The position numbers and the translations under genes are program-made. Shown here piece by piece: positions 136 to 64,000 of a stretch of DNA of 64,000 nt (its first letter is position 1; every line of letters begins with the position of its first letter). The notes under the pieces were generated by a model. It did no database searches. It was not told where the DNA came from and saw only the letters and a program-made list of their open reading frames with translations. Source of the DNA: Stentor roeselii (taxonomy: Eukaryota > Ciliophora > Heterotrichea > Heterotrichida > Stentoridae). The stretch spans positions 62,001-126,000 of the forward strand of contig RSEH01000019.1 of NCBI GenBank assembly GCA_006503475.1, written 5' to 3'.

Positions 136-779
136 TTACTCTAAACAAAACCTTCTCATATCTTTTTCAGGTCTTTGATTAATCTTCAAACTATCTGATG
201 AAACATTTTTCGAAGTATTTCTCAATATTTCTTCTCTTTTCATACTTTCCGTCAATATTAAAAACGCTTCATCAACCCCAACACCTTCCTTCGCAGAGCA
301 TTCAATATAAATAGCTCCATAAGTCTCAGCAAATTCTTTAGCTTCATCAAAAGTAACAACTCTTTGCTCAGCTAGGTCAAGTTTACTTCCGATAATTATT
401 GTTTTCACATTTTCTGAATAAAAATTTGAGACTTGTTGCATCCAAGTGTTCAAATTCACAAAAGAGTTCTCGTTAGTGATGTCAAAAACAATCACAAGAC
501 CATCAACTCCTCGCCAATTAGAAGGAATCATCATTTTGAACCGTTCATACCCGCCTGTGTCCCAAATTTGAAGCCTGATTAATTCTTGATTTATTTTTAG
601 GATTTTTACTCTCTTTTAGATATTACCAAATCACTCAAAAATCTTACTGTGAAGTGATTTAAGAACTTATTATCGATAAAACGAAATAATAAACTTGACT
701 TTCCCACTCTGTAATCGCCGATAAGAGCAATCTTAAACAAATAGTTACTGTGTAGAGGGTACTATTCTTTGTTAGACAT
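136..779 (-). CDS. Rab-like small GTPase, degenerate copy A (2 introns)
   Basis: A 204-aa Ras-superfamily GTPase of the Rab type, normally a switch in membrane traffic. The coding sequence joins three exons. A 15-nt intron at 748-762 removes an in-frame TAG at codon 6. A 14-nt intron at 613-626 lies exactly where the Rab switch-I stretch D-L/F-R-(V/I)-K begins. The P-loop GDYRVGKSS is intact. The G3 box reads WDTGGYE, so the catalytic Gln is Tyr. The expected NKxD box reads SKLD, and the switch-I Thr is not evident (TVRFLSDL). ECSAKEG is present. The tail RRFCLE has one Cys, two residues before the end, and no usual Rab prenylation motif. It is a tandem paralog of the gene at 1013-1650. It is probably a GTP-locked or weakly acting Rab, or a gene under relaxed constraint. 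Family call is firm; function is inference. Confidence 0.8.
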
Positions 780-1012
780 TTTATTAAGATAAAGCTTTAT
801 CGAATTTGATAGGTTAATCAAGTGGATAGTCTCAAGGTGAATAGTTCAAAACTTATCTTTGATTTTATAATTTAAAGATTAATTTTATTCCAACTTCACT
901 ATCTAGGATCATAAAACAATAAACTATATAATTGACTAAAACTATTGAATTGCAAGACCCAATACAAAAATTCTAAAAAGCTAAAAATTCTTCTATCAAT
1001 CAATATTAAACC

Positions 1013-1650
1013 TTACTTTAAACAAAACCTTCTCATGTCTTTATCAGGTCTTTGATTGATCTTCAAACTCCCAGATAAAACATTTTCTGAAGATTCTCTC
1101 AATATATCTTGTTCATTTTTGATACTTTCCGTCAATATCAAAAACCCTTCATAAACCCCAACACCTTCTTTCGCCGAGCATTCAATATAACTTGCCCCAT
1201 AATCCTCAGCAAATTCTTTAGCTTGATCAAAAGTAACAACTCTTTGCGCAACTAAGTCAATTTTATTTCCGATGATAATTTTTTTCACATCTTCTGAGTA
1301 ATGATTAGTGACTTGTTGCATCCAAGAGCTGAGATTAAAAAATGAGTTCTCGTTAGTGACATCAAATACAATCAAAACACCCTTTACTCCTCTATAGAAA
1401 GAAGAAGTCATCACTCCCCGCCCGACAATGTCCCAGATTTGAAGCATGACCATTCCTTGATATATTTGAAGGGTTTTTATTCTCTTTTAGATGTTACGAA
1501 ATCGATGTTGATTGTTTCTATTATGTTACTTCTGAATTCATTTTCGGTAAAACGTATTAAAAGACTTGACTTTCCCACTCCGCAATCACCGAGAAGCACT
1601 ATTTTGAATAAATAACCACTGAATATATGGTACAAATCTTTGTCAGACAT
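1013..1650 (-). CDS. Rab-like small GTPase, degenerate copy B (2 introns)
   Basis: A 202-aa Rab-type GTPase, tandem paralog of the gene at 136-779. The first intron (1619-1633, 15 nt) contains no stop but sits at the same place as in copy A. The second (1484-1497, 14 nt, GTAACATCTAAAAG) is required to reach the frame encoding INIDF-RIKTLQI, a near-canonical Rab switch-I/beta-2 sequence. The P-loop GDCGVGKSS and NKID box are intact. The G3 box is WDIVGRG where WDTAGQE is expected, so both the catalytic Gln and its following Glu are lost. The tail RRFCLK again has a single Cys in a non-standard position. The body ([26 protein letters not shown]) matches copy A closely. It is a divergent Rab, possibly constitutively GTP-bound. 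The start ATG at 1650 aligns with that of copy A. Confidence 0.8.
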
Positions 1651-43752: not shown

Positions 43753-46700
43753 ATGCAGGGGAAAGCCGAGGCTTCAAGTATTGACTTTACCTTGCAAGAC
43801 CCTTCAGGGAAAACATACGAGATTCAAGTATCTCCATCAGATTCTCCAATAGACCTGAAGGCATATTTGAGTGATTTCGCTCCTTTATCATATTACACAA
43901 ACTACTCTCTAGAAACCAATGGCGAGATCCTTCAGGACTACATCGAGTTCTCCGAGCAGTCAATATCCTCAACAGTATCCATGAAATTCAACAGTTACAA
44001 CGAAAGATCCTCAAAAGCGCACATAAAGCGTTTAAAAGACCTTCTTCATCACCCTCCATCAGTGACATGCCAAGTAGTCAAATCATCTCCTCCGATCCAA
44101 GAGCTTCAAGGCAAGGTAGAAGAATCACTGTCTCCTTTTTCAATGGAGGCGCTCATCCTTCAGCCGCTGGTAAAGTCCCCGTCATCCTTAAACCCTTGGA
44201 GCGACGAAGAAGAAACAGTCGAAATCCCTTCTTGCCTTTCTCTGCTCACCCTCAGCGAGTTCAACCCTCCCAACGCGAAACGAAGACTGGCGGGCGACTT
44301 GCTTTACCTCGTCGTAAGAACACTCGAAGGAAACGTTGTTCATGTGACTTGCGCTGTCAACGGCTTTTGGGTCAATTCAAGCGAAAGTGGCAAGTCGTTT
44401 AAACCTGACCCTTCTTCTGAGTCCTTCGCAAGTAAGACCTTGCCTGATTTACTCTGCAAGTTAAGTGCGGGATTCGCTGCTGCTTTTAGTAAATTATTGA
44501 ATATTGGAGCAGAATGGAATTCAATTCGAAATCTTCCTAGTGTACTGCCTTGCCCTGCTTGGCAAGTCAACTCGGTTGATGAGGACTCGGGAAGTTTTTT
44601 TGATCCTGATGGGTTTGTTTTGAGAGATTGGAATGAAGAGTTTCAAATGGTTAGAAGCTTGCCGAGTGAAACTCCTATTCAGAGGATTCAGAGGGATAAG
44701 GCTATGGGGAAGATTTACTCGGACTTTTTGGAAGCGGCTGTTTCTGGAGCGAAAAATGTGGTACATGGTTGTGTCCAGTCATTGAACCCGATGGACACAG
44801 GAACTCAGCAGCTATTTGTCTACAACCACATTTTTTTCAGTTTCACTGAAGACCTAGAGTACATTGTAATGTGTAAACAGAGCAACAACAAGGTCCAGAA
44901 GCTTCCTTTACCCACGTTTCGGCGAATTTAGACCTGAGAAGTTTAAAGATTTTAAACAGTTTAGAACTTCCATCACTTCACAGCATCTTTTCATGCATCG
45001 TGGACTACCGTGGACATCGAGTTCTTTGCCAGAGCATAATTCCAGGTATTTTAAACCAGAACCCTCAAACAACTGCGCTTTACGGAAGCATCGACGACGG
45101 GCAAACAGTTTCGACTGATCCGGCTTTTCACGAGTTGATGAAAGGAATCTGTGAAAAGCTTTACATTGATAAGTCAGTCCTTATTGACAAGTCCGGAAAT
45201 AAACATGAACTTTGGGGCGCTCTTGACACGAAGGGCATCAAAGGGTCCGACCAAAGGATGTATTTTTTAGAAGCTTTGAGACTTACACCTAGAGACACGA
45301 ATTATTTAGGGGAACAGTTCAGTCTTTGTCTTCTTAGACCTGAACTCATTGAACAGTATCAACAAGTCATGCAGAATAAATTTGTTGAGGAAAAAATGAA
45401 GGAAGCTGTCGCTGGGAAGACACCTGAAGAAAGTAAGATTACTTGGGAAGATCTTCAAGAAATTATTAAAAGTTATCAGAAAGTCACGTTTAACCCGAAT
45501 GTAATGACTTCTTGTCAGTTTGCAGATGAAGACCCTAAACGTCTTGAAAATATTGAAGCACTGTCCAAGTTCGTCCTAACTAATCAAGTCCCATCCCTAG
45601 CAAAGCTTCTAGTCTCCGAAGACGGTTGTTGGTCAAAACTAAGCAACAGTCTCTCTGAGCTCTTCCACCGTTTCGGAGTAAACTTGCGTTACATCGGTAA
45701 GGTCTGCGATCTTCTTTCCCAAGAAGAGCACCGTCATATAAAATGGACATTAGAGCGATACGCAGCAGTTAGGTCCTCAAAGCACATATTCAACAAGATC
45801 TTGCGAGAAACTCCAGATCTTTACCTTGCAGAGACATTCGCAAGTCTCTTAAACGCTTTAGTCCCAGCACAGCCTTCAAAGCCACAAGACAACAAAAAGA
45901 AGCGCAAGCGAAAAAGAGGAAAAAAAGACGAATTAAAAGACCTGATCACGATGAACAAGCCAGAAGAGCAAGACCCTGAAAACATCTGGAAAACCATCCA
46001 ACAATTCACCCTCAGCCATTTCGGAGTCACCCTTCCCAGCAAGTTCGCTTATTGGGAAGCCGTCGGCTCCGCCGGGCTTCTTCTCGCCTTTAAAAAAGAC
46101 ATCTGCCTCGCTCTCGGGGCTCAGGTGGACCAAACAGCGAACCTTTCTCAAAGAATCTCGCCAAACAACGTCCTGGGCTTTGTGGTTAAAACCAAGACCT
46201 TAGAATGGAGAAGCGTTGAAAGTCGCTGGTTGTTTGAAACAGGCATCAAATCAATCAGTGAACAAAGTTTAGACCCTGGAATGGACATGCTCGTTCAAAG
46301 TGCAGCGATTCAAGCTCAGGTCAGTGGAACTTTAAATGCGGAAGTTGCTTCGATTTATCAGAAAATTTCTCAGATTTACTTTAGTCAGAACCAGAATAAC
46401 AAAGCGATTAAATTTCAACATTCTGCTGTTTGCATATATGAGAAAGTACTGGGAATTGACCACCCGGTTGTTGGGAACAGTTATATTAATCTTGCGTGTT
46501 ATTATCAGACTGCTGGGAAGTTTAAGAGAAGTTTGAGACTCTATAGTCATGCATTGCAGGTATTTATGAGGAACTTTGGAGAGATGTGCCCGGAAGTTGT
46601 TGTGGTTTTGGTCAGTCTTGGAATTTTGTATGGGGATACTGGAATGCATGAGGTCTCGATTGGATTACTTTCTCATGTTATTAACCTTTGCTTGGCACTT

Positions 46701-62996: not shown

Positions 62997-64000
62997 ATGG
63001 GTATTTGTGTTTGTAAACGTTACTGCCCTTCCACAAAAGAAACCAAATCCACAGTGTTAAATTCCGAGCCAGTCTTAGAACTCAATCCTTTATCCAACAG
63101 CACCTTATCCGACAAATACATCTTAAAAAAAGTCTTAGGCCAAGGAAAATTCGGAACAGTTCGCAAAGCAATTCACAAAAACAACCCAGACCTGGTAGTT
63201 GCAATAAAAACAATTCACAAAAACCAGAAAGTTTTCGACTTAAAAACCCTTCTACGCGAAATCAACATTTTAAAGGTGATCGATCACCCAAACATCGTAA
63301 AATTTTACGAGTTTTTCGAAGACGAGTCCGAAATCCACATCGTGATGGAATTTTGCTCAGGTGGAGAACTTTTCGAGAAAATCGCTCAAAAAGGTCGATT
63401 TTCCGAAGAAGAAGCTTCAAAGTACTTAAAAAAAATGTTCGCAGCAGTCAATCATCTTCACCTTCTCGGAATCTGTCATCGAGACCTGAAGCCTCAGAAT
63501 TTTTTATTTGAAGACAAAAGTGAAGAAGCAGAGTTGAAACTGATTGATTTTGGTTTATCAAATAAAAGTTTCAGTAATGTGAGTGGCTTTAAAATGACGA
63601 GTCTTGTTGGGACACCTTTTTACCTGGCTCCTGAGATACTTCAGGGAAAATACGACATAAAATGTGACTTGTGGAGCTTGGGGGTCACAATGCACTTTAT
63701 GCTCGTTGGGGATTATCCTTTCAAAGGTCGGACAAACGACGAAGTCTTTTCGAAAATCAGTTCAGCGACTGAGGCAAACATGAATTTACTTGAAGGTGTC
63801 AGTCCTCATGCTTGTGACCTTCTGAAAAAACTACTTGTTAAAAACCCTCAGTTTCGAATTGGCGCTAGTGAAGCTTTGATCCATCCTTGGCTTAAAAATT
63901 CTTATAAAAATCGACCTGCTAGTCAAGATCTCGAGTTTTTTGTCAAGTTTAAACCTATTGGCCTGCTTAGATTCGCTGCTTTAAGTGTTGTTGCGAAATA
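62997..64000 (+). CDS. Calcium-dependent protein kinase (CDPK-like), 3' end beyond the window
   Basis: The frame opens at ATG 62997 and stays open for 334 codons to the window edge. The N-terminus MGICVCKRYC has a Gly at position 2 and nearby Cys, fitting N-myristoylation plus palmitoylation and membrane attachment. The kinase domain is complete: KVLGQGKFGTVRKA, VAIKTIHK, HRDLKPQNFLF, KLIDFGLSNK, activation segment TSLVGTPFYLAPEIL, and the C-lobe ending LLVKNPQFRIGASEALIHPWL. After it comes FVKFKPIGLLRFAALSVVAK, matching the autoinhibitory junction and first helix of the calmodulin-like domain of CDPKs. EF hands are expected beyond base 64000 but are not seen. CDPKs in alveolates couple Ca2+ to secretion and motility. 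Confidence 0.9.
   Translation, partial: MGICVCKRYCPSTKETKSTVLNSEPVLELNPLSNSTLSDKYILKKVLGQGKFGTVRKAIHKNNPDLVVAIKTIHKNQKVFDLKTLLREINILKVIDHPNIVKFYEFFEDESEIHIVMEFCSGGELFEKIAQKGRFSEEEASKYLKKMFAAVNHLHLLGICHRDLKPQNFLFEDKSEEAELKLIDFGLSNKSFSNVSGFKMTSLVGTPFYLAPEILQGKYDIKCDLWSLGVTMHFMLVGDYPFKGRTNDEVFSKISSATEANMNLLEGVSPHACDLLKKLLVKNPQFRIGASEALIHPWLKNSYKNRPASQDLEFFVKFKPIGLLRFAALSVVAK

Follow-up and report, generated by a model that had tools for sequence, protein, structure and literature searches.

Two Rab genes in the window need a 14-nt cut

Can a spliceosome remove an intron of 14 nt? The question is raised by two Rab genes on the minus strand of the window, i.e. the whole 64,000-nt stretch of DNA that was analysed, which corresponds to bases 62001-126000 of contig C119 in a genome of 44.4 Mb and 522 contigs. 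Read without a cut, both genes reach a TAA at +18 from the donor. When 14 nt are removed at one shared position, Rab sequence crosses the joint in both, and in the gene c62779 SDL is then followed by RVKILKINQELIRLQIWDTGG. The sequence-only reading had claimed that this removal is required in both genes and that the next AG, at 16 nt, gives the wrong frame. Our analysis agrees on both points: the AG at 14 is the sole frame-restoring AG within 80 nt in c62779 as well as in c63650. The predicted structures are, in window coordinates:

136..612 (-), exon 3 of c62779, ends at the stop codon
613..626 (-), candidate intron 2 of c62779, GTAATATCTAAAAG, 14 nt; placed by frame, Rab homology and the sole frame-restoring AG within 80 nt
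627..747 (-), exon 2 of c62779, holds the P-loop GDYRVGKSS
748..762 (-), predicted intron 1 of c62779, GTACCCTCTACACAG, 15 nt; its donor divides an apparent in-frame TAG; position derived from the ATG at 779
763..779 (-), exon 1 of c62779, MSNKE plus 2 nt
1013..1483 (-), exon 3 of c63650, ends at the stop codon
1484..1497 (-), candidate intron 2 of c63650, GTAACATCTAAAAG, 14 nt; placed by frame, Rab homology and the sole frame-restoring AG within 80 nt
1498..1618 (-), exon 2 of c63650, holds the P-loop GDCGVGKSS
1619..1633 (-), predicted intron 1 of c63650, GTACCATATATTCAG, 15 nt; position derived from the ATG at 1650
1634..1650 (-), exon 1 of c63650

The 14-nt form had been described as a feature of two paralogs. 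Both carry it, but the tandem block to which they belong actually holds ten copies, named here by their starts on C119.

The apparent stop at codon 6

With the decayed copy set aside, nine copies of the block remain, and seven of these, c62779 among them, have a TAG at codon 6 when read straight (c63650 has TTG and c54517 has TCT). A 15-nt intron 1 of the form GTAC...AG is predicted in nine of the ten copies, with A at position 10 in all nine, and in the seven it starts at the G of this TAG; in c62779 the order is GAATA, GTACCCTCTACACAG, T. Since the 15-nt intron begins at its G, the codon-6 TAG is no defect. Excision gives a Rab-like start, e.g. YDYLFK in c61901 and YNYLFK in c62779. Stop-codon reassignment was considered as the cause of the TAG and rejected, as the intron-1 donor divides it. 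In-frame stops inside the G domain were found in 3 of 30 Rab loci (L014, L023 and L031), each at an intron place, and the Rab genes are readable under the standard code. This and the 15-nt introns would suit a heterotrich similar to Stentor. The stop counts of the open reading frames (40 TAA, 31 TAG and 9 TGA) are no test of the genetic code, because the frames were delimited by these stops.

Ten Rab copies in tandem

The ten copies start at positions 63650, 62779, 61901, 61022, 60156, 59262, 58410, 57510, 56626 and 54517 of C119. Excision of a 14-nt intron 2 turns seven of them (c63650, c62779, c60156, c59262, c58410, c57510 and c54517) into full-length Rabs of 195 to 206 residues, and no other cut length suits all seven. 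Three of them, c60156, c59262 and c54517, could also stay in frame through an AG at 53 or 59, but 13 or 15 domain residues would then be lost. The spliced c58410 protein, the only copy scanned against Pfam, matched PF00071 (Ras/Rab G domain) with an E value of 8.4e-47, over the cut-off.

The three other copies show different states of the same position. The intron 2 of c61022 is GTAATCTCTAAAAAG (C119:60869-60855, minus strand), 15 nt long, in frame and without a stop; it has a run of five As and the acceptor AAG. In c61901 (C119:61901-61256, minus strand) the 14-mer is present and one exon base is deleted just 3′ of it, and the frame is kept only with a 16-nt intron to the next AG, which could be a compensated acceptor switch or beginning decay. 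Finally, c56626 (C119:56626, minus strand) has decayed: several gaps break its frame, it has a short deletion close to its start, and the intron-2 donor is absent. An AG at 16 is found in eight of the nine motif-bearing loci, namely all but one of the eight Rab copies and, in addition, the cyclin-L-like gene described below. Leaky use of this second AG is therefore expected. The eighth Rab copy is c58410, where AC follows the 14-mer and there is no AG at 16.

A C-terminal CC in Rab GTPases serves double prenylation. It ends the proteins of three Rab1-like genes outside the block (L006, L010 and L014) and none of the nine non-decayed block proteins, six of which end in CLK or CLE and the others in CFK, QKS and RGK. 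Furthermore, NKxD is changed to SKxD in three block copies, and switch II is shortened in c63650. Because CC is absent from nine proteins and SKxD is present in three, the membrane anchoring and nucleotide binding of the block Rabs may differ from those of ordinary Rabs.

Selection on the exon downstream of the cut

Only when the 14 nt are cut out does exon 3 share the frame of the start codon. For the six close 14-nt copies, i.e. the seven without c54517, exon 3 (159 codons) gave an omega of 0.474, and omega = 1 was rejected (2dlnL 25.2, p 5e-7); the null used the same tree, with kappa chosen on a grid of five points. The estimate was 0.487 when the last columns were left out (p 1e-5), 0.406 when c54517 was added (p 1e-10) and 0.457 with c61022 and c61901 (p 4e-9). 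Pairwise exon-3 dN/dS within the six ranged from 0.40 to 0.85, indicating moderate selection; between c54517 and each of the six it was 0.29 to 0.42, at dS values of 1.4 to 2.0 that are near saturation. For exons 1-2 of the six copies (47 codons) omega = 1 was not rejected (omega 0.71, p 0.22, pairwise values up to 3.25), and with c54517 included it was (omega 0.44, p 8e-4).

The six copies and c61022 form 21 pairs, in which gaps were counted. Exon 3 contained 18 gaps in 9,891 bases (1.8 per kb), 12 of them multiples of three, whereas the spacers contained 125 in 4,830 bases (25.9 per kb), of which 10 were multiples of three. Gaps of other lengths thus amount to 0.61 per kb in exon 3 and 23.8 per kb in the spacers, and the six found in exon 3 all involve c59262, close to the C-terminus. 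Taken together, exon 3 is under purifying selection.

Introns of 15 nt at the same codon boundary

Four Rab1-like genes outside the block (L006, L010, L014 and L015) resemble the block copies in their Rab motifs and in both intron positions. They differ in that their intron 2 is 15 nt long, like the intron at the first position; L006, L010 and L014 were read from the full extraction, and the introns of L015 from translation and motif. In L014 the 15-mer at the intron-2 place contains an in-frame TGA and an in-frame TAG. Since four Rab genes carry 15 nt exactly there, the 14-nt form appears to be that very spliceosomal intron with one base less.

In a set of 21 homology-supported 15-nt introns, all have A at position 10, a pyrimidine at position 9 and a YAG end; GTA and AG were demanded by the search, nine of the 21 are intron 1 of the block, and the 15-nt intron 2 of c61022 is not in the set. 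The 14-mers have T9 and A10 as the 15-nt introns do, but their acceptor is AAG, not YAG.

A query with a block protein gave 228 matches, of which the best 150 were scored. Every one of the eight scored matches that start no earlier than residue 38 lies in the C119 block, and 140 outside the block span the intron-2 position in one frame, in a best-first list that favours unbroken genes. Thirteen of these 140 have an internal stop, which in three (L014, L023 and L031) can be attributed to an unspliced intron.

When L006, L010 and L014 served as the outgroup in trees, c54517 fell outside the other block copies with a support of 100, and c61022 paired with c57510 within the 14-nt group (support 66 and 71); most other branches were weak. 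The simplest reading would be that one A was lost before c54517 split off and that c61022 later went back to 15 nt. Gene conversion within the tandem block could mislead this reading of a single loss and a reversion.

The 14-mer in a cyclin-L-like gene

A 14-mer identical to that of the Rab block is found at C517:43879-43892, where it joins MNEELLLVKDIGILLEL and DQLCISTSLSLY. It sits between GILLEL and DQLCIST, the counterpart in cyclin-L2 being GILLRL-PQVAMAT with a gap-free joint. The sole PDB match up to E 1 was cyclin-L2 chain 31zn_C (E 0.013). The end of exon 1, LVKDIGILLEL, scored 27 against LIQAAGILLRL, compared with 16 for the next best among 3,066 six-frame windows of the locus, and this score was reached by 20 of 100,000 shuffles. 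Exon 2 alone gave no match up to E 10. For the protein, Pfam Cyclin_N stayed below the cut-off and NCBIfam gave no match; a close second copy was not found in the genome, where the next match had E 0.24. The frame would likewise survive the removal of 32 nt, at the price of DQLCIS, which has a counterpart in the homologue. As judged from these comparisons, the 14-mer fits as an intron of the cyclin-L-like gene.

Frequency of the 14-nt form

The exact 14-mers GTAATATCTAAAAG and GTAACATCTAAAAG occur at 5 and 3 places in the genome, and their reversed controls at none. The looser pattern GTAANNTCTAAAAG occurs at 18 places and its reversed control at 42. As this pattern is rarer than its control, the motif count alone proves nothing. 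Eight of the 18 places share one Rab codon boundary in the block, and such a placement of candidate introns is not chance; the other ten are the C517 case and nine that are not intron-like. Two further patterns were searched. GTAANNTCTAANAG gave 29 places against 70 for its reversed control; none of its 11 new places was a clear intron, with L062 open on the left only. GTAANNNCTAAYAG gave 19 against 77, and again none of 11 new places was clear (two were clipped by contig ends, and L078 and L080 were ambiguous). Together the three patterns mark 40 distinct places, eight in the block (including c61901) and 32 outside it, among which C517 is the sole clear case. Among CTAA-type motifs the predicted 14-nt form is thus rare in this genome; other 14-nt introns would escape, because all three patterns fix CTAA. 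The sequence-only reading had suggested a 14-nt class. The predicted form does fit seven Rab copies and one other gene, but it is rare, and the 22 further motif places yielded no clear case.

All three patterns of intron-like 14-mers are less frequent than their reversed controls, which might reflect avoidance of accidental introns or mere composition.

An ab initio scan of intron lengths covered 266,551 bases in 33 sequences, with eight control motif pairs. At 15 nt it listed 11 GTA-AG candidates versus 2 over the eight control pairs together. At 14 nt there were 7 candidates versus 28 over the eight pairs, or about 3.5 each, which is no clear excess, and two of the seven (c54517 and C517) lie in sequence chosen because of the finding. 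The scan is insensitive, as the seven other 14-mers of the block went undetected. It gives no evidence for a common 14-nt class.

The scan also listed 17-nt candidates in L014 and L026. An intron of 17 nt had been proposed in the window, and it is supported here: GTAATGTGTAAACAGAG at 44866-44882 (plus strand) lies within a CLU domain that resumes in another frame after it, with profile positions 1-76 before and 88-225 behind. Two ends, 15 and 17, were tried for it, and the frame is kept with 17 only. The 15-nt-like end of this intron (CAG at 15) would give the wrong frame and is seemingly skipped for the AG at 17.

Competing explanations

Other accounts of the Rab block were weighed against these data. 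The copies could be decaying pseudogenes, in which splicing ceased when a 15-nt intron lost one base, and the open frames would be relics. The drifted motifs (SKxD in three copies, the short switch II of c63650), the lack of CC in nine proteins, the decayed neighbour c56626 and the moderate omega would suit such decay. We nevertheless consider it improbable, as exon 3 of the six close copies rejects omega = 1 (p 5e-7), frame-breaking gaps are few there (0.61 per kb against 23.8 in the spacers) while c56626 has several, the form is common to c54517 at pairwise exon-3 dS above 1.4, and the same 14-mer is found in the cyclin-L-like gene. A second rival makes the AG at 16 the working acceptor and the 14-nt cut rare or absent. 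Introns of 16 nt are a known class, all motif-bearing Rab copies but one (seven of eight) have this AG, as does the cyclin-L-like gene, and c61901 is in frame only with 16. This rival is still quite improbable: if 16 nt were removed, the frame would be lost in six full-length Rab copies and in the cyclin-L-like gene, and the AG is missing from c58410.

A ribosomal -1 frameshift without splicing would meet the need for a frame change in an A-rich stretch, and yet about five extra residues would remain in the protein, no in-frame X XXY YYZ heptamer was seen on inspection by eye, and paralogues have a 15-nt intron at the exact codon boundary, one of them containing in-frame stops; we rate this as highly improbable. 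An assembly error, i.e. one A missing from a run, is suggested by the difference between A4 and A5 in a homopolymer. It is barely conceivable, since the same error would be needed in eight Rab copies and one unrelated gene with one motif, and c61022 has A5. The earlier argument from conservation, that a sequencing error is unlikely, holds up: among the best 150 of 228 matches scored, which favour unbroken genes, 140 other Rab matches cross the position in one frame.

Proposed route to a 14-nt intron

The spliceosomal reading is supported by the 15-nt introns at the same site, the seven full-length Rabs, the missing AG in c58410, the selection on exon 3, the shared form in the deeply diverged c54517 and the cyclin-L-like gene. 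On this evidence the 14-mers are very probably genuine GT-AG spliceosomal introns, derived by the loss of one A from a Rab1-like 15-nt intron at the same codon boundary. The loss would have changed CTAAAAAG to CTAAAAG. It would have left the spacing between the 5′ splice site and A10, the presumed branch point, unchanged, and with it a loop of 10 nt, and would have cut the tail between A10 and the acceptor from 5 to 4 nt; with A11 as an alternative branch point the tail would be 3 nt. The copy c61901 may depend on the AG at 16.

More broadly, it seems likely that a spliceosome of the heterotrich type stably excises 14-nt introns with a 10-nt lariat loop and a 4-nt tail. Such introns would have arisen by single-base loss from 15 nt, would be older than the c54517 duplication and would be present in at least two unrelated genes. 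They may need the strong branch and acceptor stretch TCTAAAAG, and c61022 has maybe gone back to 15 nt and c61901 on to 16.

If true, this puts the lower bound for spliceosomal introns at 14 instead of 15 nt and suggests that the tail from branch to acceptor, not the lariat loop, is the distance that can still shrink. An annotation limited to 15-16 nt would label such genes broken. With options of 14, 15 and 16 nt and a dead copy, the block forms a natural series for a single intron position. Thus, the physical limit of the spliceosome can be tested in one gene family.

Comparison with known tiny introns

Introns of 15-16 nt, described in heterotrichs, had been taken as the shortest spliceosomal introns, which agrees with the available text of three papers. 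In Stentor, 8,173 of 8,806 annotated introns are 15 nt and 633 are 16 nt long (PMC9505925); heterotrich introns are 15 bp long in about 95% of cases and otherwise 16 bp (PMC11441545); Blepharisma introns are predominantly 15 and 16 bp (PMC9942806). In an excerpt of a 2025 paper the 15-nt Stentor intron is counted among the shortest known (PMC12316389). In the literature searched, which left out most subscription papers, no report of a 14-nt spliceosomal intron came up. The wording "14 bp" or "14-nt intron" in the accessible parts of PMC8752655 and PMC13134632 refers to retained intron pieces, not to 14-nt introns. The 18-nt introns of Bigelowiella natans are also extremely short, but longer than 14 nt (compared in the same excerpt of PMC12316389), and for Arabidopsis the available part of PMC6161759 gives no confirmed intron below 59 bp.

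The closest likeness is to the 15- and 16-nt introns of Stentor coeruleus and Blepharisma stoltei. The branch A of Stentor introns is mostly at position 10 in the 15-nt form or 11 in the 16-nt form, with a 5-nt tail (PMC9505925, available text). Like these, the 14-mers have GT and AG ends, here at a place where homologues have an intron, and the A at position 10 of the 15-nt form; the genome also has a U2 snRNA match (C18:116696-116887, 142.6 bits, over the cut-off). Unlike them, they are one base shorter than 15 nt, their presumed tail is 4 nt instead of 5 if A10 branches, and the acceptor is AAG, compared with YAG in the 21 introns read here. Because their length is neither 15 nor 16 nt, we regard the putative 14-nt introns as a variant of the heterotrich tiny-intron kind and not as an ordinary member of it.
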